36,435 bases of DNA from Anaerovorax odorimutans (lineage in GTDB: Bacteria > Bacillota > Clostridia > Peptostreptococcales > JAAYPU01), in the NCBI GenBank assembly GCA_016841185.1, contig JAENZQ010000032.1, forward strand, positions 1-36,435, written 5' to 3'. The notes under the pieces were generated by a model. That model was not told the origin of the DNA, made no database searches, and saw only the letters and a list, made by a program, of their open reading frames with translations. Positions 2,840 to 28,083 of this stretch are shown here, in pieces. A program made the translations under genes and the position numbers. The stretch's first letter is position 1. The number at the start of each line of letters is the position of its first letter.

Positions 2840-2875
2840 ATAAATACCTCTCTTCCTAATTCTATTTAGAAGGAT

Positions 2876-4099: not shown

Positions 4100-4112
4100 A
4101 ATACCTCCGCAT

Positions 4113-5312: not shown

Positions 5313-5340
5313 TCCTAATCTCTCCTTTAAGTTTTAGTAA

Positions 5341-6411: not shown

Positions 6412-6455
6412 GATGCTCCTCCTATTGATTTATTTTGCCGGCGTTTTATACTATT

Positions 6456-6471
6456 AGCATAATGCATGCCA
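6456..6471 (-). promoter_or_regulatory. Sigma-54 (-24/-12) promoter of the opine/M20 operon
   Basis: On the minus strand the sequence reads TGGCATGCATTATGCT. It has GG and GC separated by exactly 10 nt, as in the consensus TGGCACG-N4-TTGCA. The predicted start is near 6445, leaving about 34 nt of leader with the ribosome site before the ATG at 6411. A gene for a sigma-54 activator lies immediately upstream. Confidence 0.8.
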
Positions 6472-6533
6472 AAAAATATCATTGATACACCTATTGGAAT
6501 TTGAGGACTTTTGATAAAAGGCATATCGGGCAA

Positions 6534-6563
6534 TAAAAAAGGTTTACGAAAAATCGTAAACCT
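6534..6563 (-). terminator. Terminator of the sigma-54 activator gene
   Basis: A perfect 10-bp stem (6540-6549 with 6554-6563) with an AAAA loop is followed on the minus strand by TTTTTT. It overlaps the first base of the activator's TGA stop and isolates that gene from the operon promoter at 6456. Confidence 0.85.
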
Positions 6564-7942: not shown

Positions 7943-7994
7943 AGCAGTACCGTTACCCAATTTTCGTAATTTTTCTGAATTTTCGTTAATTCAA

Positions 7995-8023
7995 ATAATA
8001 GCAATAGATGGTGGCTTTGTCAA
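7995..8023 (-). promoter_or_regulatory. Sigma-A promoter of the sigma-54 activator gene
   Basis: On the minus strand TTGACA (8018-8023) and TATTAT (7995-8000) are separated by 17 nt, a near-consensus promoter. Transcription would begin about 45 nt before the ATG at 7942. Two direct copies of ACGAAAATT, 19 nt apart (7978-7986 and 7959-7967), lie in the leader. Confidence 0.75.
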
Positions 8024-8040
8024 ATAAACTTTTTTAGGAA

Positions 8041-8064
8041 TAAAAGACGGTCGAATGACCGTCT
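8041..8064 (-). terminator. Terminator after the sensor kinase gene
   Basis: An 8-bp GC-rich stem (AGACGGTC at 8045-8052 with GACCGTCT at 8057-8064) and a 4-nt loop are followed on the minus strand by TTTTATT. It lies 31 nt beyond the kinase stop codon. Confidence 0.75.
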
Positions 8065-8094
8065 CCTTGCATATATTGTTTATACTGTAATGAT

Positions 8095-10089
8095 CTAGTC
8101 GGTATTCTTCCACAAGGGTATCTCAAGGATCGTTTTAAACAGATCTCCATCAATTTGAATGTTGAATTCTCCGCTTTGAAGTCTTGTAAGGCTTTCAGCT
8201 ATAGACAGGCCTAAGCCGGAGCCTTCGGTTGTCCTGGCGGTATCCCCCCTAACAAACCGCTGGGTCAATTGTTCCGGAGAAATATCCAATGGAGCTGCTG
8301 AGATATTCTTGATGGTCAGCTGCCCATAGTTATAGGATTTTTTGATATCGATATAGACTCTTGAATGATTCAATGAATATTTGATAACATTTGACATCAG
8401 GTTTTCAACAATACGCCACATATACTTTCCATCAGCATATATGAAGACACGCTCTTCACATTCCGAAATACGTACATTCAATCCTACACTGTGAAATTTC
8501 TCTTCGTATTCGCCATATGCCTGCAGTACCAATTCATGTAAATCTATTTTTTCCGGTTCTACTCGAAGATTTCCGCTGGAGGCTTTGCTGGCTTCCACCA
8601 AATCTTCAATAAGCTGTTTAAGTCTTGAGGATTTCTCCTCCAGAACACCTACAAATTCATCTGCTTTTTCATTATTTAAGTCTTCCTTTTTTAATAGATC
8701 CACGTAGGTAATGATGGAAGTAAGAGGCGTTTTCAAGTCATGAGAGACATTGGTGATCAAATCAGCCTTCATTCTTTCTCCTTTTACCGCTTCCATTACT
8801 GCTTTTTTCAGCCCTGCCTGGATATTTAGGATATCTTCAAAGAACCCGGAAAAGACAGGGGAAACTTTTGAAGTATCTGATACATGGTTTAAGTTGCCTG
8901 CAGATATTTCCTTTGTGGTGTTCATAATATGAGACAAAGAAAAGAGAGATTTTGCAGTGAAGTATACAACAAAGATATTAAGCGCCAGCAGCATGACAGC
9001 TGAAATAAATCGAGCTCCGCCGCCATAGTAATTGGCAAACACACTGAATAAAATACCATTTACCCCGCCGTAAGCTATCAAAAGGATGATAACAATAGGT
9101 TTGAAAAGTTTGCCGTTGAATAATACCTTCAGCCAATTCCTTAAAGCTGTTAAAAGTTGATAAATCATAGAATTTTTTAAGAGCTGCCTGCTCTTTATTT
9201 GCCTGATCATAGAAAAGATGAAGGATAGCCCTATGACAGCATCAATAGCTAAAACCGCAGAACCTGTGAAAATAAAGAATTTGTCTTCAAGATAGGAGAA
9301 CTCTCTTACAAGCATTATTGAGAATAAAGCGGCAATAAAAACCAGAAGTAAATGAATATCCGTATAGAGCCTGTCTATAAAAGTAAGCTGTATCTCTCCG
9401 TTTTTTTCTTTGCGTCCTGATACGATGCAAAGATAGGTAAAGGACAGGGTTAGCAATAACAGTGAAGAAATAATAGCCGGAGGGATGTAATGAGCTAAGG
9501 CATTTACTTTTGTGTATGTTACATAATCGGTATAAAATTCATCTCCGGGCTGCAAGGGTTCTACAACAGCTGCATATACTTCATAAGGGGTATTGTCTAA
9601 CATCTCCTGGATATCCCTGTTCATAGGGAAGCTATCAACCGTATGGAGCCTGTCGAAATGTACACCGGAGGGTTGCTCTTTCAATAATGCGATGGCATCT
9701 TCCTCTTCGGTGGCGCTTAGATTGCTGAAAAATTCTTCGGTTTTAGTATTTCTTATATAATATTTAAAATTAACGGTTTCTGAAAGATGATCCATTATTC
9801 GATCCAATCGGTCTATTTTTTCCCTAATGGATTCATTGTCTTGACCGGAAGCTTTTATATGGTCTTCATTTTTTAATTGCGTAGCCAGTTCAACGGCATT
9901 ATGCACCAGATGTGCATAGTCCCATTGAAATTCAGTGGAATAATAATAGGTTTTATTATTCAGCTCATCATAATAATAGCCGTAAAAAATGCAGGTACCT
10001 GCAAAAGCAAGAATACTTGCCAGCATAATAATAAAGACAATAGCTTTTACTGCTAAAGAATATTTAATATTTTTCAATTTTGTATCCAA
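8095..10089 (-). CDS. Membrane sensor histidine kinase
   Basis: A 664-residue kinase. TM1 is near residues 12-34, an extracytoplasmic domain runs to about residue 205, and roughly five further hydrophobic helices lie between 205 and 385, many more than in a simple two-TM kinase. Then come a short HAMP-like linker, a HisKA segment with phospho-acceptor H450 (VSHDLKTPLTSI) and an HATPase_c domain (NLMSNVIKY N box, GSGLGLSIAESL G box). The reading frame starts at ATG 10089, inside the response-regulator gene, whose stop is at 10064, so the two are translationally coupled. The signal is unknown; the multi-helix region could sense envelope or membrane state. Confidence 0.9.
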   Translation of the reverse strand: MDTKLKNIKYSLAVKAIVFIIMLASILAFAGTCIFYGYYYDELNNKTYYYSTEFQWDYAHLVHNAVELATQLKNEDHIKASGQDNESIREKIDRLDRIMDHLSETVNFKYYIRNTKTEEFFSNLSATEEEDAIALLKEQPSGVHFDRLHTVDSFPMNRDIQEMLDNTPYEVYAAVVEPLQPGDEFYTDYVTYTKVNALAHYIPPAIISSLLLLTLSFTYLCIVSGRKEKNGEIQLTFIDRLYTDIHLLLVFIAALFSIMLVREFSYLEDKFFIFTGSAVLAIDAVIGLSFIFSMIRQIKSRQLLKNSMIYQLLTALRNWLKVLFNGKLFKPIVIILLIAYGGVNGILFSVFANYYGGGARFISAVMLLALNIFVVYFTAKSLFSLSHIMNTTKEISAGNLNHVSDTSKVSPVFSGFFEDILNIQAGLKKAVMEAVKGERMKADLITNVSHDLKTPLTSIITYVDLLKKEDLNNEKADEFVGVLEEKSSRLKQLIEDLVEASKASSGNLRVEPEKIDLHELVLQAYGEYEEKFHSVGLNVRISECEERVFIYADGKYMWRIVENLMSNVIKYSLNHSRVYIDIKKSYNYGQLTIKNISAAPLDISPEQLTQRFVRGDTARTTEGSGLGLSIAESLTRLQSGEFNIQIDGDLFKTILEIPLWKNTD

Positions 10090-10759
10090 TGCCCCACACC
10101 ACCTTTAAATATTTTGGTTCCCTCGGATTGATTTCTATTTTTTCTCGAATACGACGGATATGAACAGAGACAGTATTTTCTGCAGAATAGGAAGGTTCTT
10201 TCCATACTCTTTCATAGATTTCTTCTATGGAGAAAACTCTCCCCATATTTTCCATTAGAAGGTGCATAATGCCATATTCCGTGGCTGTAAGCCGAATCAA
10301 CTCACCGTCTACCCGGACTTCTTTGGTATTCTGGTCCAGCTCTAAACTATCGGTTTGTAGTACGTCGTTTTTATTAACGATACTCCCCAAAGATGTGTAT
10401 CGACGCATTTGGGATTTGACTCGTGCTAAAAGTTCTAATGGATTAAAAGGTTTAGTGACATAATCATCAGCTCCAAAATTTAGTCCGATGATTTTGTCTG
10501 TATCTTCTGATTTTGCCGATACCAATATGATAGGAATATTTTTTTCTTCTCTTATTTTAAGAGTTGTTTTCAAGCCATCCAGTTCCGGCATCATAATATC
10601 CAAAATGATAAGATGAATTTCCTGTTTTTCTAAAGCTTCAAGCACCTGTATGCCGTTGTAGGCTTTAAATACATGATAGTTTTCCTGCTTTAGGTAGATC
10701 TCAATAGCATCTACGATGGTTTTATCATCATCACATATCAAAACATTTAATTTATCCAT
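10064..10759 (-). CDS. OmpR-family response regulator
   Basis: A 231-residue regulator with a receiver domain (acidic pocket D10-D12, phospho-acceptor D54 in LIILDIMMPELDG, conserved Lys in TKPF) and a C-terminal winged helix (LTATEYGIMHLLMENMGRVFSIEEIYERVW ... VHIRRIREKIE, shown in parts; GIGYKIEKY at the end). It overlaps the kinase gene by 26 nt and forms a two-component operon with it. A possible TATAAT (10809-10814 on the minus strand) lies about 50 nt before the ATG. The 11-bp phased repeats at 10861 are a plausible binding site for this protein. Confidence 0.92.
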   Translation of the reverse strand: MDKLNVLICDDDKTIVDAIEIYLKQENYHVFKAYNGIQVLEALEKQEIHLIILDIMMPELDGLKTTLKIREEKNIPIILVSAKSEDTDKIIGLNFGADDYVTKPFNPLELLARVKSQMRRYTSLGSIVNKNDVLQTDSLELDQNTKEVRVDGELIRLTATEYGIMHLLMENMGRVFSIEEIYERVWKEPSYSAENTVSVHIRRIREKIEINPREPKYLKVVWGIGYKIEKY

Positions 10760-14658: not shown

Positions 14659-17600
14659 ATGAGCCAAGTTAAAAGAATATATGTTGAGAAAAAAGAAGGA
14701 TTTGATATAGAAGCTCAAGGCTTATATCATGATCTGACAGAAACAATCAAACCTAAAGGACTGAAATCAGTTAGAATTATTAATCGATATGATGTAGAAG
14801 GGATAGATAAAGAGACTTATAAGAAGGCAAAATATTCAGTTTTTGCAGAACCCAATGTGGACATAGCTTATGATGAGCATATCGATTTACCTGAGGACTG
14901 CCGCTACTTTGCCATGGCCTATCTTCCGGGACAATATGATCAACGGGCGGATTCGGCAGCCCAATGTGTTCAGATCATCAGCAAAAAAGATAAACCTGTA
15001 GTAAGATCGGCTAAATTGATTGTATTGATAGGGAATATATCCGATGAAGAATTTGAAGGAATAAAGCATTATTGTATAAATCCGGTGGATTCACACGAAG
15101 CAGAGCTTGAAAAGCCTCAAAGTTTGGCGTTGGAATTAGAAAGCCCTTCAGATGTTTCGGTTATCCATGGGTTTACTCTTATGGATGAATCCCAATTGGA
15201 AAAAATGAGTGAAAAAATGCAACTGGCGATGAGCAAAGAAGATTTGATATTTATCAGAAACTTCTTTAAAAATGAGGAGAAAAGAGATCCGACTGTTACG
15301 GAAATCAGAGTGTTGGATACTTATTGGTCTGATCATTGCCGACATACTACATTCTTGACAGAAATAACAGAGGTAGCATTTGAAGAAGGCAAATATAAAG
15401 AAGCCTTAGAGAATACTTTTTCTGACTACATCACCGTAAGGAAAGATGTTTACAAAGACAAGAAAAAGCCTATATCTCTTATGGATATGGCAGTTATTGG
15501 AATGAAACATCTGAAGATGAAAGGTAAGTTGGAGGATTTAGATGAATCTGAGGAAATAAATGCCTGCAGCATTCGAGTCAAAGCAGATGTTTCCGGAAAA
15601 GAAGAAGACTGGCTGGTTATGTTTAAAAATGAAACACATAATCATCCTACTGAAATAGAGCCCTTTGGCGGAGCAGCTACTTGTCTTGGCGGCGCTATTC
15701 GAGATCCACTTTCAGGACGATCTTATGTATATCAGGCCATGCGTGTAACAGGGAGCGGTGATCCGCGAGCAAAAATAGAAAATACTTTGCCCGGCAAACT
15801 TCCACAGAAAAAAATCACCATAGAAGCTGCTCAAGGATACAGTTCCTATGGCAATCAAATAGGTCTGTCTACAGGGCAGGTGGCGGAGATATATGATGAA
15901 GGATTTATTGCCAAAAGAATGGAAGTGGGTGCTGTTATAGGTGCTGCGCCTAAAGAAAATGTCATAAGAAAAAAACCTGAAAAAGGAGATCATATCGTAT
16001 TGGTAGGGGGAAGGACCGGGAGAGATGGATGTGGCGGTGCAACAGGTTCTTCCAAGGAACATACCGAAGAATCGATATTATCCTGTGGTGCAGAAGTTCA
16101 AAAAGGCAATCCTCCTACTGAAAGAAATATTCAGAGGCTTTTCAGAAGAAAAGAAGTTTCGACTCTAATAAAACGATGTAATGACTTCGGTGCAGGTGGT
16201 GTATCTGTAGCCATTGGCGAGTTGGCTGATAGTATAGAAGTCGATCTGGATTTGGTTCCCAAAAAATATGAAGGGCTTGACGGCACTGAATTAGCGATTT
16301 CCGAATCTCAGGAGAGGATGGCAGTAGTGGTATCAGAAAAAGATGTCCTTCAATTTATTAAATATGCAGATGAAGAGAATTTGGAGGCGGTTTCTGTTGC
16401 AAGAGTAACAGATGACGGCCGATTTAAAATGAAATGGAAAAATAAATATATATTAGACCTTAAACGAGATTTTCTCGATACCAATGGTGTCAGCCAAAAA
16501 ACGAAAGCAACGGTTACCATGCCTTTGGATGATGAAAACTACTTTAATAAACACAAAAAACGACCAGGAAAAGTCAAGGATTTATGGCTGGAAGAAGTCC
16601 AGGATTTGAATATTGCAAGCCAAAAAGGATTGGTTGAGCGGTTTGACAGCACCATAGGTGCTAAAACGGTGCTTATGCCTTTAGGTGGTAAATATCAACT
16701 GACACCTGCCGAAGGCATGGCTGCAAAACTTCCGGTATTGGAGGCTGATACTGAAACAGCCACTTTGATGACTTATGGATATGACCCAAAAATATCAAAA
16801 TGGAGCCCATACCACGGCGCTCTTTATGCAGTCATAGATTCGGCAGCGAAAATAACTGCAATGGGCGGCGATTATTCCGAATGCAGACTGAGTTTTCAGG
16901 AATACTTTGAAAAATTGGGAGAGAATCCCGAAAAGTGGGGAAAACCATTGGCAGCCTTATTAGGGGCATTTCAAGCCCAGAAGGAATTGCAGATTCCTGC
17001 TATTGGCGGAAAAGATAGTATGTCCGGTACTTTTATGGATTTAAATGTACCGCCTACGCTTATCTCATTTGCGGTTGGTACAACTTGTGTAAAAAATATA
17101 ATTTCTCCTGAATTTAAAAAGGAAAACAGCTTAATCGTTTATGTTTATTGCGGCAGAGATGAAAACGAGATCATCGACTTTGAAACCTTTAGGTCGAATA
17201 TGCAGAGAATCCATCAATTGATAAAAGAAGGCAAGGTGCTGTCTGCTAAAACAGTGGGTTATGGCGGAATAGCGGCTGCTGTAACTAAAATGAGCATGGG
17301 GAATAAGATTGGAGTCAAGATCGAGGGGCTATTAAAAGAAGAGCTCTTTGAACCGGCATATGGATCCATTATTTTGGAAATCGATGAAAAAGAAAATGTA
17401 TTTCAACTGTTGAAAAGTATCAACCATAGAGCGATCGGAAAGACCGTTTCGGAGAAAACCATAAGTGTTGCCGGAGAGAAGATGGAGCTGGATTTGCTTT
17501 ATAGAAAATGGGCTGCTCCATTGGAACAAATATTCCCTACGAGAGATAGTGATTTGGCTGCATCAGGTTTAGAAGGTCAAGAAACTGAAAAAGAAAAAAT

Positions 17601-18453
17601 CGAAGACAAAATATATAAAAGCAGGAATCATCAAAAAGCTAAAACACATTTTGCGAAGCCAAAAGTATTGATCCCATTCTTCCCGGGATCCAACTGTGAA
17701 GTAGATTCAAAGCTTGTATTTGAAAAAGCCGGAGCAGATGTCAAAACACTGATGTTCAGAAACTTGACGCCCAATGCCATCGAAGAATCCATCGAGACAT
17801 TGGTAAAAAGTATCAAATCCTCTCAGATCATCATGATACCGGGGGGCTTCAGCGGAGGAGATGAACCGGAAGGTGCTGCAAAATTCATAACCTCAGTTTT
17901 CAGAAACCCCAGTGTTTCAGATGCGGTTATGGAGTTGATCGATAACAGGGATGGTCTGATATTAGGAGTCTGCAATGGTTTTCAAGCCCTAATAAAATTA
18001 GGTCTGCTGCCCTATGGTGAAATAAGAGATATTAAAGAGGATGATCCCACTCTCACTTATAATCGAATTGGAAGACATGTATCCTGCTTGGTTCGTACGA
18101 AAGTTACTTCGGTCAAATCTCCATGGTTCAATAATGTAAACCCGGGAGATGTACACATGATCCCTGTATCACATGGAGAAGGACGATTCATCAGTTCAAA
18201 AGAATTGTTGGAAGATATGGAAGCAAACGGTCAGATTGCAACACGATATGTAGATTTTGAAGGTAATCCTACCATTGATATAAGGTTCAACTCAAATGGT
18301 TCTGTTGGTGCTGTTGAAGGAATTACCTCTCCGGATGGTCGTATATTAGGAAAAATGGCACATTCTGAGAGAATAGGAAAGTATCTTTACAAGAATATAG
18401 AAGGCAATATGGACCAGAAGATATTTGAGGCAGGCGTGAGCTACTATAAATAA
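14659..18453 (+). CDS. purL: Phosphoribosylformylglycinamidine synthase, single-chain form
   Basis: Converts FGAR, glutamine and ATP to FGAM in purine synthesis. With 1264 residues it combines the synthetase and glutaminase parts in one chain, unlike the PurL/PurQ/PurS set of Bacillus. The synthetase half contains FKNETHNHPTEIEPFGG and GGKDSMSGT, and a second AIRS-like repeat follows. The C-terminal class I glutaminase has C1105 in LGVCNGFQAL, PVSHGEGRF, and H1235/E1237 in MAHSER as the remaining triad. TGGAGG lies 9 nt before the ATG. It stands alone, 11 kb from the other pur genes; its 3' end abuts a 28-bp perfect palindrome. Its leader is repeat copy C. Confidence 0.96.
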   Translation: MSQVKRIYVEKKEGFDIEAQGLYHDLTETIKPKGLKSVRIINRYDVEGIDKETYKKAKYSVFAEPNVDIAYDEHIDLPEDCRYFAMAYLPGQYDQRADSAAQCVQIISKKDKPVVRSAKLIVLIGNISDEEFEGIKHYCINPVDSHEAELEKPQSLALELESPSDVSVIHGFTLMDESQLEKMSEKMQLAMSKEDLIFIRNFFKNEEKRDPTVTEIRVLDTYWSDHCRHTTFLTEITEVAFEEGKYKEALENTFSDYITVRKDVYKDKKKPISLMDMAVIGMKHLKMKGKLEDLDESEEINACSIRVKADVSGKEEDWLVMFKNETHNHPTEIEPFGGAATCLGGAIRDPLSGRSYVYQAMRVTGSGDPRAKIENTLPGKLPQKKITIEAAQGYSSYGNQIGLSTGQVAEIYDEGFIAKRMEVGAVIGAAPKENVIRKKPEKGDHIVLVGGRTGRDGCGGATGSSKEHTEESILSCGAEVQKGNPPTERNIQRLFRRKEVSTLIKRCNDFGAGGVSVAIGELADSIEVDLDLVPKKYEGLDGTELAISESQERMAVVVSEKDVLQFIKYADEENLEAVSVARVTDDGRFKMKWKNKYILDLKRDFLDTNGVSQKTKATVTMPLDDENYFNKHKKRPGKVKDLWLEEVQDLNIASQKGLVERFDSTIGAKTVLMPLGGKYQLTPAEGMAAKLPVLEADTETATLMTYGYDPKISKWSPYHGALYAVIDSAAKITAMGGDYSECRLSFQEYFEKLGENPEKWGKPLAALLGAFQAQKELQIPAIGGKDSMSGTFMDLNVPPTLISFAVGTTCVKNIISPEFKKENSLIVYVYCGRDENEIIDFETFRSNMQRIHQLIKEGKVLSAKTVGYGGIAAAVTKMSMGNKIGVKIEGLLKEELFEPAYGSIILEIDEKENVFQLLKSINHRAIGKTVSEKTISVAGEKMELDLLYRKWAAPLEQIFPTRDSDLAASGLEGQETEKEKIEDKIYKSRNHQKAKTHFAKPKVLIPFFPGSNCEVDSKLVFEKAGADVKTLMFRNLTPNAIEESIETLVKSIKSSQIIMIPGGFSGGDEPEGAAKFITSVFRNPSVSDAVMELIDNRDGLILGVCNGFQALIKLGLLPYGEIRDIKEDDPTLTYNRIGRHVSCLVRTKVTSVKSPWFNNVNPGDVHMIPVSHGEGRFISSKELLEDMEANGQIATRYVDFEGNPTIDIRFNSNGSVGAVEGITSPDGRILGKMAHSERIGKYLYKNIEGNMDQKIFEAGVSYYK

Positions 18454-20283: not shown

Positions 20284-21801
20284 ATGAAAATACAATTGGA
20301 CAAAGAGAGCAGGATACCCCTTTATATTCAGATAATAAATCAGATTAAAGCTATGATTTTTTCGGGAGCATTGCCGCCGGAGTATCTTCTTCCTCCGGAA
20401 AGAAAATTGGCAGAGGAATTGGAAGTGAACCGGTCCACCATACTCAATGCGTATAGAGAGCTGAAAGCTGAAGGTCTTGTACATTCCAGAATCGGAAAAG
20501 GAACCATGGTTGTTCCATATGAAAGCAAAACCGAGGTATCCATAAGGCCACCTGAACATAGGTTGACATGGCAGTATTTACTTAGCGACGAAGCTTGTCG
20601 TTTCAATGATATTCGTATCATAGAAATGTTAAGAGTAAATGGAGATCAGCCCATAATTTCTTTTGCAACGGGTATGGCTGATCCGGCTCTATATCCGGTG
20701 GATGAATTTTATCCGGATATTACTTACGATATTGACAAGAAAAAAAGAGCTCTGGGGCATACACTTGTTGAAGGCTGTGTTGAATTGAGAAAAACTATAA
20801 TGAAAATGCAAAAAGAAAAAGGAATTGATTCGCTGTTGGAAGAGTTGTTGATCCTTTCAGGTTCTCAACAAGGTCTGAACCTTGTTGCAAGATGTCTTTT
20901 GAATGCAGGAGATACAGTTATCGTTCAGGAACCTACATATATTGGTGCATTACAAATTTTTTCAAATGCCGGCGTAAAAATCATAAGTGTTCCGGTAGAA
21001 GAAAAAGGAATGCGATTGGATATTATGGAGACTCTGATCAAAAAACATAAGCCAAAGCTGATTTATGTCATTCCAACTTTTCAAAATCCCACGGGCACTA
21101 CCATGGATCTGAAATCAAGGATTAAGCTTTTGAATATTGCATATTCCAATCAAGTGCCTATTATTGAGGATGATGCTTATGGTGAATTAAGGTATGAAGG
21201 AAATACGTTTCCTTCACTGAAAGCATTAGACCAGTATGATCATGTGCTTTATCTGAATACCTTTTCCAAAACATTATTCCCGGGGATTCGTATCGGATGG
21301 ATGTGCGGACCGAAGGAAATTATCCATCAATTGACGGTAAAAAAACAATTGGAGGATTTGCATACCAGCACTTTTTCTCAGGTTTTTCTGACGGAATTTT
21401 TGAAAAGCGGACGTTTTCAGGTGCATATCGATGAAAGCTGCAGGTATTATCGGGAGAAAAGAGACACCATGTTGAAAAAGCTGGAGAACAGCCGTATAAA
21501 AGGGCTTCGTTGGGTCAGGCCTTCAGGCGGTCTGTATATATGGTGCAGATTACCTTTAAACATATCTGCCGATACGCTTTTGCTGAAGTCGAAAGAGAAA
21601 GGGGTTATTTTTGTGCCCGGCTCCGTATTTTTTTTGAATAATAAAGGTAATGAGTATATCCGGTTAAATTTTACTTATCCCACAGTTAAGGAAATTGAAA
21701 AGGGCATGATGATTTTACTAAATGTAATAGAGGAAGAGAATAAAAAGAATCAGGAAAAGATAATTAATAAAGATTCGGCCATATGTAATCCGATATATTA
21801 A
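20284..21801 (+). CDS. MocR-type regulator (GntR helix-turn-helix fused to aminotransferase)
   Basis: A 505-residue chimera. Residues 1-75 are a GntR winged helix (PLYIQIINQIKAMIFSGALPPEYLLPPERKLAEELEVNRSTI in outline). After a linker of about 50 residues comes a fold-type I aminotransferase domain (from about 110) with the PLP lysine K329 in NTFSKTLFPGIRIGW, plus YVIPTFQNPTG and the C-terminal RLNFTY. Family members bind PLP or an aminoacyl-PLP adduct and control PLP, GABA, taurine or amino acid genes. Adjacent inverted and direct copies of ATTGGATGG are likely binding sites. An aminotransferase gene of the same fold follows 23 nt later. Confidence 0.92.
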   Translation: MKIQLDKESRIPLYIQIINQIKAMIFSGALPPEYLLPPERKLAEELEVNRSTILNAYRELKAEGLVHSRIGKGTMVVPYESKTEVSIRPPEHRLTWQYLLSDEACRFNDIRIIEMLRVNGDQPIISFATGMADPALYPVDEFYPDITYDIDKKKRALGHTLVEGCVELRKTIMKMQKEKGIDSLLEELLILSGSQQGLNLVARCLLNAGDTVIVQEPTYIGALQIFSNAGVKIISVPVEEKGMRLDIMETLIKKHKPKLIYVIPTFQNPTGTTMDLKSRIKLLNIAYSNQVPIIEDDAYGELRYEGNTFPSLKALDQYDHVLYLNTFSKTLFPGIRIGWMCGPKEIIHQLTVKKQLEDLHTSTFSQVFLTEFLKSGRFQVHIDESCRYYREKRDTMLKKLENSRIKGLRWVRPSGGLYIWCRLPLNISADTLLLKSKEKGVIFVPGSVFFLNNKGNEYIRLNFTYPTVKEIEKGMMILLNVIEEENKKNQEKIINKDSAICNPIY

Positions 21802-21824
21802 TAATTTAAAAGGGGGTTGGCAAA

Positions 21825-23027
21825 GTGAAATATGCGAATCGTATGAATCAGATGACAGCATCGGAAATCAGAGAGATTCTGAAAGTGACGGAACAGAAGC
21901 AGGTCATTTCTTTCGCAGGAGGACTACCGGATCCGGAGTTATTTCCCGTAAATGAGTTTTTAACGGCAGCTAATTATGTTTTGAAGGAAAGCGGAAGCCA
22001 AGGGCTTCAGTACAGTACAACGGAAGGTTTTGAGCCTTTGAGAATGCAAATTGCAAATCGGATGAACAGCAAGTTTCAGTCTCAGATAACAAAGGATGAT
22101 GTGTTAATCGTAAACGGGGCACAGCAGGCATTGGATATGTCCGGAAAGCTTTTTCTGGATAAAGGGGACTTGATTGTATGCGAGAGTCCGACTTATCTGG
22201 GTGCTATTAATGCTTTCAGGACATATGAATGTAGATTTATAAGTGTTTTAACTGAGGATGAAGGGATGAGTTTAAGTCACTTGGAAGAAACATTAAAAGC
22301 TCATCCTGATATCAGGATGATTTATGTGATACCGGATTTTCAGAACCCGACAGGCCGCCGGTGGTCGTTAGAAAGGCGCAAGAGATTTATGGATTTGATA
22401 TCCTGTTATGATATTCCGGTCATTGAGGATAATCCCTATGGAGAAATTGTTTTTGATAATCAGATTTTTCCTTCTCTTAAAAAATGGGATAAAAACAATC
22501 AGGTTATCTCGTTGGGGACATTTTCAAAGATTTTCTGCCCCGGACTTCGTGTGGGATGGATTTCGGCTTCTCAGGAGATATTGAACCGGTACATTCTTTT
22601 GAAACAAAGTTCGGATTTGCATACTTCGAATTTAAGTCAGAGGCAAATCAGTAAATATTTGGAATTATTCGACATAGAAGTACATATAAGGAAACTGATT
22701 TTGGCTTACAGAAATAAAAGAGATATTGCGGTGTCTGCAATTAAAAAATGCTTTCCTGCCGATATAAAATATACCATGCCGGAAGGCGGTCTATTTTTGT
22801 GGATAGAACTGCCGGAATCATGGTCATCAAGGGAATTGCTTGAAGTATGCATCAAGGAAAATGTCGCTTTTGTACCGGGAGAACCATTTTATCCCAATGG
22901 AGAAAAAAAGAATGCCTTCCGCCTGAATTTTTCCAATGCTGATGAGGAAAAGCTGAAGGAAGGCATTTCAAAAATGGGTGGTATCATAGGTCGATACCAT
23001 TCAGCTTCTATGTCTGAAACCATTTAA
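21825..23027 (+). CDS. PLP-dependent aminotransferase, class I/II
   Basis: A 400-residue fold-type I aminotransferase resembling 2-aminoadipate/aromatic-type enzymes. It has the nucleotide-like YVIPDFQNPTGRRW motif, the PLP lysine K235 in GTFSKIFCPGLRVGW, and RLNFSNADEE with the substrate-carboxylate arginine near the end. It is homologous to the catalytic half of the preceding MocR protein but lacks the DNA-binding domain. The start is GTG at 21825 with AGGGGG upstream. It is probably regulated by its neighbour and transaminates an amino acid that the MocR protein senses. A strong terminator follows. Confidence 0.9.
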   Translation: MKYANRMNQMTASEIREILKVTEQKQVISFAGGLPDPELFPVNEFLTAANYVLKESGSQGLQYSTTEGFEPLRMQIANRMNSKFQSQITKDDVLIVNGAQQALDMSGKLFLDKGDLIVCESPTYLGAINAFRTYECRFISVLTEDEGMSLSHLEETLKAHPDIRMIYVIPDFQNPTGRRWSLERRKRFMDLISCYDIPVIEDNPYGEIVFDNQIFPSLKKWDKNNQVISLGTFSKIFCPGLRVGWISASQEILNRYILLKQSSDLHTSNLSQRQISKYLELFDIEVHIRKLILAYRNKRDIAVSAIKKCFPADIKYTMPEGGLFLWIELPESWSSRELLEVCIKENVAFVPGEPFYPNGEKKNAFRLNFSNADEEKLKEGISKMGGIIGRYHSASMSETI

Positions 23028-23039
23028 TAGTTTCATAAG

Positions 23040-23081
23040 AAATGAAATGGCGATATATTTTTATCGCCATTTCATTTTTTT
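23040..23081 (+). terminator. Terminator after the aminotransferase gene
   Basis: A perfect 15-bp stem (23040-23054 with 23063-23077) and an 8-nt loop run into a T-tract. It separates the plus-strand aminotransferase from the convergent molybdenum hydroxylase operon. Confidence 0.85.
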
Positions 23082-23091
23082 AGAAGGTAGA

Positions 23092-24099
23092 TCATATTGA
23101 CTTTTTATTGTCAGCAAGTAATCTCAGTATTTTTTCCGGAGTAGCCGGTAAACTGTCTACCCATACACCAACGGCATCATAGATGGCATTGATAATAGCC
23201 GGAGGCTGTGTATTGGTTACCATTTCTCCGCAGCCCTTTGCTCCGAAAGGACCGTATGGATCATAGTTTTCAAAAAACTCAATCTGACTGTTCAAAGGAA
23301 TATCCTTTGATGTGGGGATAATATAATCTGTAAAGTCAGAAGTATATTTTTCGATACTTACAGGATAGTCCGGAGAAAGATCCTCAAAAAGTGCCATGCC
23401 AATACCCTGTACGTTGCCACCGTCTACCTGCCCTTCTGCAGATAAAGGATTGATAACAGTTCCTATGTCGTAACAATTGAATAGATTGACTACTTCAACT
23501 ACACCTGTTTCGGTATCTACATCCACATCAATAACTGAGGCACCCCAGGCCATGGATCGACTTGGTTCTGTGAAGCCTGTTCCAGGCTCTCTTGGGGGTG
23601 CAACCGGTGGGAGAAAACCATCATGTCCCATTAAGAATTTTCCTGAGTATGTTGCACCGCTTCCGATTTCTGCCAGTGTCAATTGTTCGCTTGTATTAGA
23701 TTTTTTAAATACTTTTCCTTCCGCATATTCCAGTTCCGAAATATCACAGGACAACATTGCAGCAGCGTACATTTTCATTTGCTTGATGAGATCCTGAGCA
23801 GCATTTATACTGGCGAGACCGACAATATAGGTGGACCGGCTCCCGGCAGTATCCATACTGAAGGCACAGGTGTCAGTATTTGAATTGTCAATGTTTATTA
23901 CTTCTTCCGAAACACCTAATGCTTCTGCAACCATTTGGCAAGCAACGCTTTTAAAGCCTTGCCCCATTTCACAGGTTGCATTGGTCATGTCTATTGTTCC
24001 ATCGGATTTGAGGCGCAAGGATACATGATCAGGGTCGCCGCCTCCGTTGAATCCTGTTGGGTAATAGATAGAAGAAATTCCACGCCCTCTTTTAATCAT
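23092..24099 (-). CDS. Molybdenum hydroxylase, medium molybdopterin-binding subunit
   Basis: A 335-residue protein equal to the C-terminal molybdopterin half of xanthine dehydrogenase/aldehyde oxidase. It contains TCEMGQGFKSVACQMVAEALGV, DTAGSRSTY and the catalytic-glutamate motif PFGAKGCGE (E292). Together with the 429-residue protein upstream it makes the usual catalytic chain of about 760 residues in two pieces. The split resembles NdhM of Eubacterium barkeri nicotinate dehydrogenase, so it need not be a mutation: the frames differ, there is a TAA stop, a 14-nt gap, and AAGGATGG before this ATG. Substrate candidates are nicotinate, a purine or another N-heterocycle. Confidence 0.88.
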   Translation of the reverse strand: MIKRGRGISSIYYPTGFNGGGDPDHVSLRLKSDGTIDMTNATCEMGQGFKSVACQMVAEALGVSEEVINIDNSNTDTCAFSMDTAGSRSTYIVGLASINAAQDLIKQMKMYAAAMLSCDISELEYAEGKVFKKSNTSEQLTLAEIGSGATYSGKFLMGHDGFLPPVAPPREPGTGFTEPSRSMAWGASVIDVDVDTETGVVEVVNLFNCYDIGTVINPLSAEGQVDGGNVQGIGMALFEDLSPDYPVSIEKYTSDFTDYIIPTSKDIPLNSQIEFFENYDPYGPFGAKGCGEMVTNTQPPAIINAIYDAVGVWVDSLPATPEKILRLLADNKKSI

Positions 24100-24113
24100 T
24101 TAAATCACCATCC

Positions 24114-25403
24114 TTACTTTGAACTCATTTCCTGATATTCCTTTGGCAGTTCAACTCCGGCCATTTTTGCAACCTTTTGCAGAGTTTCTATACCGGATAC
24201 AGCAACCAAAGGATTACCGACATGGTTTTCATCGCCTTCTTTAAAGGCATTATTTAATCTTATTTCAAATGGACTTATACCTATTTTCCTTGCAAGCTTA
24301 TCTGTTTGGACCTGCTCTGCATACTGTCCGATATTTACACCAAAGCCCCTCATGGAACCACTTGGCATTTTATTGGTGTATACAAGTCTTCCATCTATTG
24401 CAAGGTTTTCTATTTTATTGGCACCTCCGATATAATTTACGTTTTTTTCAAGAGCATAAAGCCCTAATTCCGTATAGGCACCGCAATCTTCAAGGACATC
24501 TACATAACGAGCCGTTATTTTGCCATCTTTTTTTATGCCGTCTTTTATTTTAAAGCGCCATGCACTTCTTATGGTGGTATACATCATTTCTTCTTCACGA
24601 GTCAGATGAAATTTAACGGGTTTTCCAGTCTTTAAAGCCAAAACACCTGCAATATGATCGGTATGTATGCTGTTTTGACCACCAAAGGCGCCGCCGATAG
24701 TGGCTCCCACCATCTTCAGCTTATTGAGGGGAAGCTGGAATACGTTGGAAAGATCGCCCAATGTAAAATATAATCCCTGGGTTTTTGAATGGATAACCAA
24801 CTTGCCGTTTCCGTCCAAATAGGCCAAAGATGCCGTTGTTTCAATGGGTGCATGTTCCTGATTGGGAGTCCAATATTCCCCTTCTACGATATAATCTGCT
24901 TCTGCAAATCCTTTTTCGACATCCCCTCTTCGAATCCTTCTCACTGTATCCACATCATCAAACACTCTTAAATTTCCTTCCGGACGTACTTTCGGAGCAT
25001 CTTCTTTCATGGCTTCTACAGGATCGATTACGTAAGGGAGTTCTTCCATTTCAATTTTAACTTTGCTTAAAGCTTTTAGTGCAGTGGATTTGTCAACTGC
25101 AGCTACTGCAACGATATTCTGTCCTTTATATCGGGCAATATCTTCTGCCAGTACATGATGGTCCGGAACCATTGAGAATAGATTATGGGGGACATCCTTA
25201 TGTGTTATGACCGAATATACTCCCGGTACTTTTTCGGCTTCCGTTGTATCGATAAAATGAATGCGTGTACAGTGATAAGGGCTTCTTAAAGTTTTGCATA
25301 CAAGCATTCCGGGCATACTAAGATCGCTGGGATAAACTGTTTTTCCCGTAACATGACCTATGCCGTCAAAACGGGGGACTCTTTTACCAACGCTTTTAAA
25401 CAT
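24114..25403 (-). CDS. Molybdenum hydroxylase, large molybdopterin-binding subunit
   Basis: A 429-residue protein corresponding to the N-terminal half of the molybdopterin subunit. An a/b-hammerhead domain comes first (YPSDLSMPGMLVCKTLRSPY ... PGVYSVITHKDVP), then the first molybdopterin domain with GGAFGGQNS and PSGSMRGFGVNIGQ. Size and gene order match NdhL of the split clostridial nicotinate dehydrogenase. It overlaps the 2Fe-2S subunit gene by 8 nt and precedes the medium subunit by 14 nt. No in-frame TGA suggests selenocysteine. Molybdenum-cofactor maturation genes are not in the window. Confidence 0.9.
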   Translation of the reverse strand: MFKSVGKRVPRFDGIGHVTGKTVYPSDLSMPGMLVCKTLRSPYHCTRIHFIDTTEAEKVPGVYSVITHKDVPHNLFSMVPDHHVLAEDIARYKGQNIVAVAAVDKSTALKALSKVKIEMEELPYVIDPVEAMKEDAPKVRPEGNLRVFDDVDTVRRIRRGDVEKGFAEADYIVEGEYWTPNQEHAPIETTASLAYLDGNGKLVIHSKTQGLYFTLGDLSNVFQLPLNKLKMVGATIGGAFGGQNSIHTDHIAGVLALKTGKPVKFHLTREEEMMYTTIRSAWRFKIKDGIKKDGKITARYVDVLEDCGAYTELGLYALEKNVNYIGGANKIENLAIDGRLVYTNKMPSGSMRGFGVNIGQYAEQVQTDKLARKIGISPFEIRLNNAFKEGDENHVGNPLVAVSGIETLQKVAKMAGVELPKEYQEMSSK

Positions 25404-25896
25404 CTACATCACTTCCTTTCGGAATAGGTCCGAATTCGCCCTTTGCAACAGCCATGACAGCATCCACGTATTTTTGATATCCGCCGCATCTGCAAAGATT
25501 GCCGGCCAATGCATCTTTTACTTCGTCATAGGAAGGGTTGGGATTCTCGTTTAAAAATGCAGTTGCTGCCATTACCATTCCAGGTGTACAGTATCCGCAT
25601 TGCGGTGCACCATATTCATGAAAAGCCTGCTGAACAGGATGGAGCTTTCCATCCGTACCTAATCCGTCTACTGTTACAACACTTTTTCCTTCAACAGTTA
25701 ATGCAATAATCATACAGGATTTAACTGCCTTGCCGTTGAGGATTACAGTACAGGAACCGCAGTCACCGTGATTACAGCCACATTTCGGACTTGTCAGACT
25801 AAGCTTTTCTCGTAATACCTGCAATAAGGTTTCTTGCGGCTCTGCCACTACTTTAACAGGCATACCATTTAAAACAAATTTAAGAACTTTTGACAT
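25396..25896 (-). CDS. Molybdenum hydroxylase, 2Fe-2S subunit
   Basis: A 166-residue electron-transfer subunit. A plant-ferredoxin-type cluster is bound by C41, C46, C49 and C61 (GCNHGDCGSCTV), and the second, helical-domain cluster by C100, C103, C135 and C137 (QCGYCTPG ... NLCRCGGY). This is the complete two-cluster pattern of XdhC/NdhS-type subunits. It passes electrons from the molybdenum centre to the FAD subunit. It lies 12 nt after the FAD-subunit gene and overlaps the large subunit gene, so all four are one operon. Confidence 0.95.
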   Translation of the reverse strand: MSKVLKFVLNGMPVKVVAEPQETLLQVLREKLSLTSPKCGCNHGDCGSCTVILNGKAVKSCMIIALTVEGKSVVTVDGLGTDGKLHPVQQAFHEYGAPQCGYCTPGMVMAATAFLNENPNPSYDEVKDALAGNLCRCGGYQKYVDAVMAVAKGEFGPIPKGSDVDV

Positions 25897-25908
25897 AACA
25901 CTTACCCC

Positions 25909-26781
25909 CTATTCTTCACTGCAAGCTTGATTAATAGCTCTTTCAAGCATAACAGGTGCGACTTGTTTACGGTACCATGCAGTAGCTCTTATATCATCTA
26001 TAGGGTTGATTTCTTCAACAACCCCGGAACAGATTTCTTTTATAAGCTCCGGTTTTACAGGTTTGCCCACTAATTTGCTTTCAGTTTGGTAACAACGTAC
26101 TGCTGTCGGTGCAACTGCGCCAAGAGCAAGTCTTGCAGCTTTACAAATGCCGTTATCCATTTCGATGTAGGCAGCTGCATTTACAACAGAAAGTGTTTCT
26201 GCTTTTCTTCTCCCGAGCTTTTTAAAGGCGGCTTTACCTTTTCCTTTTTTTATTATGATGGTCGTCAGGACTTCCTTATCGTCAATAACGGTTGATCCCG
26301 GCCCTGTAAAGAAATCTTTAGCAGCAATGGTTCTGCTGCCGTCGATACCGGCCAGTACAAATTGAGCATCAAGAACCAGTAAAGGGGTAATGCTGTCGGC
26401 AGCCGGAGAAGCATTCATAATATTACCTCCGATGGTTGCGACGTTTCTGACAGTGTGTCCGGCTGTTTCTTCCATTGCCTGTATCAAAACAGGAAGATGC
26501 TGTTTTATCAGGTTGCTTTCTTCAATTTCAGTTAAAGTAACCAATGCACCGATGTAAACATTGTCCGAATCCTCTTTAATTTCATTGTTCCCGGTATTTC
26601 CCATATAAATGATATGTAGTGGTGGTTTTTGCTCCTTTGGGATTTCATCCAATTCCTTAGACAGTTTTGGAACAAAATCGGTGCCCCCTGCAAGCAGCTT
26701 TACTTCTTCATCGTTCAGCCCTTGTAACAGACCCAGTAATTCGTCCAGAGATTCAGGGGCTTCATAAAAATATTCCCTCAT
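25909..26781 (-). CDS. Molybdenum hydroxylase, FAD-binding subunit
   Basis: A 290-residue flavoprotein of the CO-dehydrogenase M-subunit/XdhB type. It has LLAGGTDFVPKL and ATIGGNIMNASPAADSITPLL for FAD binding and a C-terminal CODH-flavoprotein domain (RKAETLSVVNAAAYIE, WYRKQVAPVML). First gene of the FAD, Fe-S, large, medium order also reported for ndhF-S-L-M of E. barkeri. AAAGGAGGTC lies close before the ATG. Electron acceptors are NAD(P) in the related enzymes; here this is not shown. Confidence 0.92.
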   Translation of the reverse strand: MREYFYEAPESLDELLGLLQGLNDEEVKLLAGGTDFVPKLSKELDEIPKEQKPPLHIIYMGNTGNNEIKEDSDNVYIGALVTLTEIEESNLIKQHLPVLIQAMEETAGHTVRNVATIGGNIMNASPAADSITPLLVLDAQFVLAGIDGSRTIAAKDFFTGPGSTVIDDKEVLTTIIIKKGKGKAAFKKLGRRKAETLSVVNAAAYIEMDNGICKAARLALGAVAPTAVRCYQTESKLVGKPVKPELIKEICSGVVEEINPIDDIRATAWYRKQVAPVMLERAINQACSEE

Positions 26782-27123
26782 GCTTGACCTCCTTTAAACT
26801 AAATTTCAATGTCTTTTCCGTGATGTATTTTAAATAAATAAATAATAATTTTAACCATTTCTCATCCCCTTTTTACCGTTTTGAACATAAAGCAATTAAA
26901 TATTTATTTGCATAAAATATAATTATGTCATATCATACTATTATTATATTATTATTTTATATTTTTACAATAGCAAATCAATAATTTCCATATTCTAAAA
27001 ACTGACATTAAAAAAATATAGGAGATTTGAAATGATCGCTGTTTTTATTGAATATACAGTATTTATGTCATAGAATTGTTATTATAAACGACAAGCAATT
27101 TATTAAAAGGCAGGCGAGTCAGA
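26782..27123. other. AT-rich divergent intergenic region
   Basis: No convincing gene. On the minus strand a possible TTGTAA/TATAAT pair (26943-26970, 16-nt spacer) could serve the hydroxylase operon, but the DNA is so AT-rich that confidence is low. Two tiny frames with ribosome-site-like words exist: a 19-codon minus frame (26799-26858) and a 13-codon plus frame (27032-27073). Both are too short to call. No member of the mosaic repeat family is present here. Confidence 0.4.
27048..27076 (+). promoter_or_regulatory. Promoter of the O-methyltransferase-like gene
   Basis: TTGAAT (27048-27053) and TAGAAT (27071-27076) are separated by 17 nt. The start point would be about 40 nt before the ATG at 27124. 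Confidence 0.5.
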
Positions 27124-28083
27124 ATGAAGAAATTGATTATTTTTGGAGCAGGTATGAACTGGAACCGGTTAAATAAAGTACTGAACTACCAGAATGCTGA
27201 AATTATAGCTTTTTCCGATAACGACAAGGAAAAATGGGGCAGAGACATCAATGGTATAAAAGTAATCCCGCCGGCTGAAATTTCCATACAATCCTTCGAT
27301 TATATCGTTATTACCAGTCAGTATTATAATGAAATTGAAGTACAGTTAGCGAAACTTGGAATCCTTCGAGATAAAATCATTTCCTTTCTTTCGGGTGATT
27401 TACGTTTGTTTACAGGCGAAAAAATACTCAGTATTTACGATACTGAAAAACTCAGGCAAGAACGGCTGATTATCAATAAAATGGTCAATCTTGACAGGCG
27501 CCGCCTTATGGATCTCGATGATGGCGATTATGTCCGGTTTTCGACTTTGGAGCTTATGGCATTTGAGATTCAATCCAAAGGGTTAAAGGGTAATGTGGCT
27601 GAATTAGGCGTTTATCAGGGTGCATTTGCAAGAAAACTCAACGACCTTTTTAAAGACAGGCTTTTGTATCTGTTTGATACTTTTGAAGGGTTCGAAAAGA
27701 AAGATATTGTCCGTGAAGAAAAAGACCGCTTTTCCAGTCCGAGAGATTCGGCTTTTTCCGATACAAGTATTTCAAAAGTTTTAAAAAAAATGAAGTATCC
27801 TGAACAATGTATCATTCGTAAGGGCTATTTTCCTGAAACCGCTGAGGGGATCCATGATAATTTTGTGTTTGTTAGCTTAGATGCAGATTTATATAATCCC
27901 ACTTATGAAGGACTGAAATACTTTTATCCATTACTTTCCAAGGGAGGCTATATCTTTGTCCATGACTATAATAATGACGAATATACAGGCGTAAAGAAAG
28001 CTGTTCGGCAGTTTTGCAAAGAGGAAGAGATTGGTTATGTGCCCATAGGGGATATGTGTGGAACGGTGGTTATCGCTAAATGA
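27124..28083 (+). CDS. TylF/MycF-like O-methyltransferase with N-terminal Rossmann-like domain
   Basis: A 319-residue two-domain protein. Residues 1-95 are a small nucleotide-binding-like domain (MKKLIIFGAG, IAFSDND, FDYIVITSQYYNEI) of the kind found at the N terminus of some sugar-modifying enzymes. The rest resembles macrocin O-methyltransferase: the SAM-site motif GNVAELGVYQGAFA, LFDTFEGFEKKD, and the metal/substrate motif SLDADLYNPTYEGLKYFYPLL with VHDYN. Family members methylate sugar or small-molecule hydroxyls in an SAM- and Mg-dependent way. No glycan or antibiotic genes are adjacent, so the substrate is open. The ribosome site is weak (AAAAGGCAGG). Confidence 0.8.
   Translation: MKKLIIFGAGMNWNRLNKVLNYQNAEIIAFSDNDKEKWGRDINGIKVIPPAEISIQSFDYIVITSQYYNEIEVQLAKLGILRDKIISFLSGDLRLFTGEKILSIYDTEKLRQERLIINKMVNLDRRRLMDLDDGDYVRFSTLELMAFEIQSKGLKGNVAELGVYQGAFARKLNDLFKDRLLYLFDTFEGFEKKDIVREEKDRFSSPRDSAFSDTSISKVLKKMKYPEQCIIRKGYFPETAEGIHDNFVFVSLDADLYNPTYEGLKYFYPLLSKGGYIFVHDYNNDEYTGVKKAVRQFCKEEEIGYVPIGDMCGTVVIAK

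Follow-up and report, generated by a model that had tools for sequence, protein, structure and literature searches.

We identify a four-gene operon, FSLM, in a 36,435-nucleotide stretch of Anaerovorax odorimutans DNA (the window; contig C45:1-36435 of genome G000, 3.56 Mb in 88 contigs). Its FAD (F), Fe-S (S), large (L), and medium (M) subunit genes, in that order, are predicted to encode a molybdenum (Mo) hydroxylase with a genuinely divided molybdopterin chain. Comparative sequence analysis points to a new lineage of a familiar type of enzyme, one whose chain was split independently and which is tied to a gene module. We propose, with moderate confidence, that FSLM is the entry oxidase of this uncharacterised module and makes a lactone (or lactam) that is opened by a UlaG-like enzyme. 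The substrate is probably neither nicotinate nor purine, because the FSLM operons of relatives sit among genes of a breakdown pathway without assignment.

All four genes lie on the reverse strand. F (25909..26781; 290 aa), the first gene of the operon, carries the Pfam domains FAD_binding_5 and CO_deh_flav_C and is 58% identical to its Clostridium bovifaecis counterpart; S (25396..25896; 166 aa; Fer2 and Fer2_2) is 75% identical to that of the same organism, and its 3' end overlaps the start of L. The molybdopterin chain is formed by L (24114..25403; 429 aa; Ald_Xan_dh_C and MoCoBD_1) and M (23092..24099; 335 aa; MoCoBD_2). Features of the Mo-hydroxylase (xanthine oxidase) superfamily are present: MoCoBD_1, MoCoBD_2, an a/b hammerhead, two [2Fe-2S] domains, an FAD domain, and the glutamate of the GAKGxGE motif (M E292). 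Eight cysteines in S (C41, C46, C49, C61, C100, C103, C135, and C137) occupy the customary Fe-S ligand positions. The best Protein Data Bank (PDB) matches are the split-chain subunits of nicotinate dehydrogenase (NDH) of Eubacterium barkeri, NdhL for L (3hrd_A, E 1e-57) and NdhM for M (3hrd_B, E 1.4e-41), each at 31% identity; the fold is given by sequence through 3hrd, and the pocket is located between the two chains. FSLM appears to be a complete, working-looking Mo hydroxylase, with Mo-pterin in L and M, two [2Fe-2S] clusters in S, and FAD in F. Gene calls and Pfam domains here confirm a preliminary description, made from the letters of the window alone, which had proposed a four-subunit split Mo hydroxylase of F-S-L-M order and NDH-like subunit sizes.

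The same description reported Mo-chain genes of 429 and 335 residues in different frames with their own ribosome sites, and the sequence bears this out. L and M lie in different frames, 14 nt apart, and positions 24100..24116 (reverse strand) hold the L stop codon, a GGATGG-type ribosome site, and the M start. We compared nine clade members: the window, C. bovifaecis (L071; CP046522, a complete genome), a metagenome-assembled genome (MAG) labelled Deltaproteobacteria (L072), a Synergistaceae MAG (L073), G313 (L074), and the more distant G809 (L106), G935 (L107/L113, contig C34), G1017 (L119), and G804 (L120); G1062, with a 433-aa L, stands outside the count. L is a stand-alone gene in all nine, across phyla, and M adjoins it in eight. 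The four nearest relatives (C. bovifaecis, G313, and the two MAGs; L identities, in descending order, 73, 70, 69, and 64%) all have a stand-alone L, with M next to it in three, and the four distant members (42-49%) are split as well, each with M adjacent; M itself is 72, 71, and 59% identical to that of relatives. Separate M starts are read in seven members (window, C. bovifaecis, Synergistaceae, G313, G809, G935, and G1017), and the break separates the MoCoBD_1 domain from the MoCoBD_2 domain, just as it does in the NdhL/NdhM pair. Fused homologues abound in our tree (57 of 77 rows), as one might expect if a frameshift or misassembly had broken a fused chain, but the clade-wide stand-alone L, the separate M starts, and the inter-domain break refute that explanation and reduce its probability almost to nil. 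Close relatives with an unsplit chain, which the preliminary description had said would turn the split into a frameshift, were looked for: clade members at 42-73% identity are split, and fused chains among the matches listed reach at most 41% identity to L and are placed in other clades. The large/medium split is genuine, the Mo chain being made as two proteins.

Only G000 and G313, among 393 genomes of the order, have an L match above 41% identity among the matches listed, and no FSLM relative was found among the viral contigs searched. In the Deltaproteobacteria-labelled MAG, M was not found after L on the 8.75-kb contig even at permissive thresholds, which reflects either gene loss or a chimeric contig. 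That contig (L072 1-8751) is 92% identical to the Synergistaceae copy in L, 79% in F, and 72% in S.

Nicotinate dehydrogenase is the closest architectural parallel. It shares the four subunits, the F-S-L-M order, the predicted cofactors, and the linker between domains at which the Mo chain is cut, but differs in its 31% identity, its clade, and its conserved neighbours. A 77-row tree gives the window chain a separate clade of five rows, and NdhL falls in one of 28 rows that mixes 15 split with 13 fused chains; seven loci were left off this tree, namely L001 (entered as the window row), the repeats L002, L033, L095, L096, and L097, and L003, the second Mo chain of contig C22. Mixture-model trees, built on hand-picked subsets of 37 and 28 rows, recover the window's wider eight-row, all-split clade with support 100/99. 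Forcing the window clade together with NdhL costs 41-43 log units, so that the phylogenetic comparison with NdhL suggested in the preliminary description does not put the two together, and the approximately unbiased (AU) test rejects the joint placement (p 0.0089 for the five-row clade, 0.00057 for the eight-row clade). Changes between split and fused states number 6, 7, and 5 on the trees of 77, 37, and 28 rows. Because the window clade is separate from the mixed NdhL clade, the split arose more than once or was reversed. By the available tests, FSLM is the same enzyme kind as NDH and not its orthologue, and on these trees the Mo-chain split of the window lineage is independent of that of NDH.

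Two single-gene markers point in the same direction. PrpF (PF04303), the one nicotinate-fermentation gene for which we searched, was not found in G000 and matches two of 14 control genomes; the preliminary description had raised nicotinate genes elsewhere as a possibility, and this marker does not reveal any. YqeB (TIGR03309), one marker of selenium insertion, was likewise not found in G000, with matches in three of 14 control genomes. A look for selenium genes, also proposed earlier, thus comes out divided, since the cousin G935 carries YqeB and YqeC over cut-offs near its FSLM copy; selenium use may therefore differ within the clade. Nicotinic acid hydroxylase is counted among the selenium-dependent enzymes in the consulted part of one source (PMC11448449). 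Tree, markers, and neighbours together support the earlier suspicion that nicotinate is not the substrate, and we consider the substrate probably not nicotinate.

The conserved neighbours of FSLM are catabolic in kind. At five of the nine clade loci (L071, L073, L074, L106, and L107/L113), drawn from two phyla, FSLM shares a gene string with genes for a UlaG-like protein, an HADH-like protein, and IlvD (or an IlvD remnant). In C. bovifaecis the order is a GntR-type regulator, a beta-keto acid cleavage enzyme (BKACE), HADH-like, IlvD, UlaG-like, F, S, L, M, CobC-like, and TylF-like, followed by MocA-like, ModE-like, XdhC-like, a molybdopterin-binding-like protein, and ModABC-like genes; of these, CobC and XdhC score below cut-offs, the molybdopterin-binding-like protein is without an NCBIfam match, and the names ModE and ModABC were given by eye. 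The G313 string runs GntR-type, F, S, L, M, HADH, UlaG, IlvD, a MocA-ModE-like fusion, TylF-like, CobC-like, and the Synergistaceae string PFOR, GntR-type, IlvD, HADH, UlaG, F, S, L, M, TylF-like. G809 has HADH, UlaG (73% identical to the C. bovifaecis protein), F, S, L, M, a Vor-type 2-oxoacid oxidoreductase, and the IlvD remnant, and G935 has HADH, an ordinary fatty-acid-type gene set, IlvD, a Vor-type oxidoreductase, UlaG, M, L, S, F, its HADH lying ~15 kb from FSLM on the same contig. A ferredoxin 2-oxoacid oxidoreductase is thus present at three of the five module loci (PFOR in L073; VorB, over the subfamily cut-off, in L106 and L107). The G935 contig C34 also carries YqeB/YqeC, an AmiS/UreI channel, crotonase-like, thiolase-like, and 3-hydroxybutyryl-CoA dehydrogenase genes, and an HpaB-family protein that, by eye, is possibly a 4-hydroxybutyryl-CoA dehydratase.

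In G000 itself the partners occupy one string on contig C14: a GntR-type regulator, IlvD, PFOR, HADH, a TRAP transporter (Pfam identifies DctP, and its two further genes were named by eye), an MBL protein, a UlaG-like protein, and an Fe-alcohol dehydrogenase. Identities to module counterparts are 68, 54, and 47% for IlvD, 65, 63, and 56% for HADH, and 63, 62, and 61% for UlaG; the PFORs of G000 and the Synergistaceae MAG are 56% identical to each other. Co-occurrence was followed in two separate phylum draws, which need not consist of the same genomes. The first (329 genomes) has UlaG at 62% or more in G000, G809, and G935, with two more genomes at 46%; the second (328 genomes) has an L chain of at least 745 bits in G000, G809, and G935, with three more at 456-467 bits. 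The same three genomes hold both. Across 247 genomes of the order, six have a UlaG-like match at E <= 1e-40 and only G000 exceeds 34%; G313 was evidently outside this draw, because it has no row although its contig carries the gene.

A second UlaG-like gene of G000 (~50%) lies on another contig (C31:30000-49646; L085) with two IlvD genes, TRAP-like transporters, and an acylating acetaldehyde dehydrogenase that passes its cut-off; a GarL/HpaI-like aldolase and a hydroxyacid dehydrogenase in the same place do not reach theirs. This set points to lactone and sugar-acid chemistry for UlaG-IlvD pairs, and the locus is a candidate deoxy-sugar-acid lactone pathway.

We infer the order of steps, the chemistry, and the class of substrate from the observed anatomy, split, phylogeny, and conserved partners. 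FSLM would transfer oxygen from water to a small substrate, either at an aldehyde or hemiacetal carbon or at a carbon adjoining a heteroatom in a ring, with electrons passing from Mo through the two [2Fe-2S] clusters to FAD. The resulting lactone (or lactam) would be opened by the UlaG-like metal hydrolase, after which the HADH-fold dehydrogenase may oxidise or reduce a hydroxy acid or aldehyde that is free, not bound to CoA. An IlvD-type dehydratase could then convert a 2,3-dihydroxy acid to a 2-oxo acid, and a ferredoxin-dependent 2-oxoacid oxidoreductase would yield an acyl-CoA. This last outcome is likely because such an oxidoreductase lies near IlvD in L073, L106, L107, and G000 C14; IlvD scores over the dihydroxy-acid dehydratase equivalog cut-off (TIGR00110) in L071, L073, L074, and G000 C14 and below it in L107. 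In all six module HADHs the catalytic Ser/His/Asn are kept and the CoA-contact residues Lys56 and Asn221 are absent, the same loss that is reported, in the sections consulted, for the free-acid dehydrogenase CsTfD (PMC10470551). The G000 HADH matches FHMPC dehydrogenase (4om8) better than 3-hydroxybutyryl-CoA dehydrogenase, while the C. bovifaecis enzyme matches the latter slightly better; because the two differ in this way, an aldehyde substrate for HADH is also possible.

We propose FSLM as a lactone- or lactam-making entry oxidase because of its partner genes and because deoxyribose oxidation likewise uses a Mo enzyme and then a lactonase. In the pathway of Pseudomonas simiae, as far as the consulted part of the report goes, a Mo dehydrogenase makes a lactone that is processed by a lactonase, a 3-dehydrogenase acting on the hydroxy acid, and a beta-keto acid cleavage enzyme (PMC6365646). 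C. bovifaecis has a candidate for each step of this type, BKACE included. The two systems differ in their components: the P. simiae pathway uses an IorAB-like Mo enzyme with a cytochrome and a short-chain (SDR) dehydrogenase (PMC6365646, same sections), whereas the module has FSLM, UlaG-like, and HADH-fold enzymes, plus IlvD and, at some loci, a 2-oxoacid:ferredoxin oxidoreductase. The phloroglucinol cluster of Clostridium scatologenes also pairs an HADH-fold free-acid dehydrogenase with BKACE, but employs a reductase and a cyclase-family cyclohydrolase, and the sections consulted mention no FSLM, UlaG, or IlvD (PMC10470551). The C. bovifaecis BKACE scores near the 3,5-dioxohexanoate family (407.5, cut-off 430).

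Several observations weigh against this proposal. The window FSLM is unlinked to the module genes in G000, where the partners lie on another contig; the C14 IlvD is only 47% identical to that of C. bovifaecis, and its link to the module is not exclusive, as it is 64% identical to another G000 IlvD on C31. No 2-oxoacid oxidoreductase was seen in the fetched C. bovifaecis and G313 stretches, the G809 IlvD is an internally deleted remnant of 181 aa, and the 8.75-kb L072 contig yielded no module gene. The stretches fetched from G1017 and G804 (42-43%), 19.9 and 7.1 kb long, contain neither UlaG nor HADH nor IlvD, the FSLM neighbours in G1017 being DmpE/F/G-like enzymes, an AmiS/UreI channel, and a LarA-like protein. 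BKACE adjoins FSLM in C. bovifaecis only, and UlaG, HADH, and BKACE all fall below NCBIfam equivalog cut-offs. An ordinary 3-hydroxybutyryl-CoA dehydrogenase of G935 keeps Asn221 but also lacks Lys56, so the CoA-contact contrast is carried by Asn221 and the test is imperfect. We lean towards a sugar-like aldehyde or a lactonisable carbonyl acid as the class; deoxyribose, other aldoses, uronates (given the TRAP transporter), furoate, pyridoxal (given the likeness of HADH to FHMPC dehydrogenase), pantolactone, and a phloroglucinol-like ring are candidates, each leaving at least one partner enzyme unexplained.

In the G1017 stretch (L119; G1017:C1:1851000-1870900), DmpG- and DmpF-type genes score over cut-off and the DmpE-like gene below, beside the AmiS/UreI channel, the LarA-like protein, and LarC.

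An N-heterocycle hydroxylase like NDH, acting on nicotinate or another pyridine- or pyrimidine-type ring with UlaG as lactam hydrolase, is an unlikely alternative. The NdhL and NdhM matches, the shared subunit order and sizes, the best PDB match of the G000 module HADH (L084) to FHMPC dehydrogenase, a pyridine-carboxylate enzyme, and the AmiS/UreI-family channel adjoining two more distant relatives would all suit such an enzyme. The low identity, the AU result, and the failure to find PrpF and YqeB in G000 argue in the other direction, and a route through a pyridine offers no obvious place for IlvD. The new N-heterocycle envisaged in the preliminary description keeps some standing as a substrate, but the conserved neighbours point more strongly elsewhere.

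The isolation of the window FSLM, which stands alone with a TylF-like gene, would also suit a general aldehyde oxidoreductase with a scavenging or detoxifying role, unlinked in G000 from the UlaG/IlvD pathway. S scores highest, below cut-off, with a glyceraldehyde dehydrogenase gamma subunit, and G000 already has two fused Mo-hydroxylase chains that score as aldehyde oxidoreductases (1233.6 and 1180.8 bits, cut-off 1100; NF045668). We regard this role as improbable, since the same kinds of catabolic genes are linked to FSLM at five of nine clade loci, and since only two of 393 order genomes have, among the matches listed, an L match above 41% identity, which is unlike a house-keeping detoxifier. 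The two NF045668 enzymes, on contig C22, share the superfamily and nearby maturation-type genes with FSLM, but their Fe-S and Mo domains are fused (946-952 aa) and they occupy a far branch of the tree; the FSLM FAD subunit has no match in the C22 stretch L075. In that stretch (C22:150000-169900) the two fused Mo-hydroxylases, of 946 and 952 aa, are accompanied by a CoA ligase of DVU_1553 type, a methyltransferase of DVU_1556 type, and the radical S-adenosylmethionine (SAM) protein TrsS, all over cut-offs, together with XdhC-like and PreT-like genes named by eye. A 3018-aa protein that reads by eye as repeat-rich and probably secreted is encoded near the C22 cluster (L076 980-10036, reverse strand).

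The TylF-like gene of the window (27124..28083, forward strand), divergent from FSLM, encodes by Pfam a SAM methyltransferase whose N-terminus weakly matches C2185. Its homologues adjoin three other FSLM operons, with identities of 41.6, 34, and 34% to the L071, L073, and L074 copies. In G124 a TylF-like gene lies within a cluster of two fused Mo-hydroxylases with MoeA-like and ThiF-like genes (names by eye), a setting similar to that of the NF045668 enzymes. No TylF-like match was found in L106, L107, L111-L113, L119, or L120 around distant FSLM members, and no Mo-hydroxylase match in 13.6-19.9 kb around the TylF-like gene of three genomes with the same genus code, G191, G243, and G245; in the first two it is adjoined by what looks, by eye, like a FeoB-like gene. 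That the protein helps to mature the cofactor is a guess, in keeping with only some of its neighbours. More tentatively still than for the entry oxidase itself, it is possible that bacteria of two or more phyla have in common an oxidative route, anaerobic and previously undescribed, that joins the split Mo-hydroxylase, UlaG, IlvD, and an acyl-CoA-forming oxidoreductase to a TylF-like maturing enzyme. Such a pathway would convert a sugar-like aldehyde or heterocycle directly to a lactone or lactam, open it with the UlaG-type enzyme, and reach acyl-CoA through IlvD and the ferredoxin 2-oxoacid oxidoreductase; the TylF-like methyltransferase might modify the sugar of the molybdopterin dinucleotide or otherwise mature the enzyme.

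Our data show that a large/medium split of the Mo chain, as in the solved NDH structure, is not a marker of nicotinate dehydrogenase, the split state having changed more than once on the trees, and that annotation by architecture would misname the FSLM family. The conserved partners mark a so far unassigned catabolic route, and this route is directly testable in C. bovifaecis, where FSLM, UlaG-like, HADH-like, IlvD, and BKACE occur in one stretch. We recognised no description of an FSLM/UlaG/HADH/IlvD cluster in the open-access PMC literature, whose incomplete coverage makes this weak evidence.

Purine genes lie on both sides of FSLM, a statement of the preliminary description that is literally true: a PurL-like gene (14659-18453) on one flank, and on the other a permease, PurE-like and PurF-like genes, and purC, purM, purN, and purH over cut-offs. 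Its further suggestion of a purine substrate did not survive. This flanking arrangement belongs to a single contig, all the named pur enzymes serve de novo synthesis and not catabolism, and the eight pur and permease proteins of the window have no match in the 13 fetched stretches around relatives. Pocket residues, which we checked by alignment, also differ. At the positions of Glu802 and Arg880 of bovine xanthine dehydrogenase (XDH), which bind xanthine, L has Asn244 (codon 24672..24674, reverse strand) and Lys320 (codon 24444..24446, reverse strand). Across the clade the first position is Asn in seven of nine members and Ser in two (L119 and L120), the second is Lys in all nine, and the xanthine-type Glu/Arg pair is absent throughout; NdhL, in contrast to the window L, has Leu and Arg there. 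NCBIfam XDH equivalog scores are all below cut-off, although half chains cannot reach full-chain cut-offs. We reject the purine hydroxylase reading, to which we give very little probability.

An A+T-rich intergenic region (26782..27123) separates FSLM from the divergent TylF-like gene and probably holds promoters, the promoter matches of the scan being merely suggestive. At the other end, an inverted repeat with a T run (23040..23086), between M and a convergent aminotransferase-like gene, is by eye a possible shared terminator and is absent from the scan list. An Rfam scan of the window gave 0 matches. The convergent region (20284-23027, forward strand) holds an aminotransferase-like gene pair, a MocR-type regulator over the NCBIfam PdxR cut-off (351.5, cut-off 320) and then the second aminotransferase-like gene. 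Further away, the reverse strand at 1442-10759 encodes a DcuC carrier and two M20 peptidases, a protein with an octopine-dehydrogenase domain, a sigma-54 activator resembling PrdR but scoring below cut-off, and a histidine kinase paired with a response regulator.

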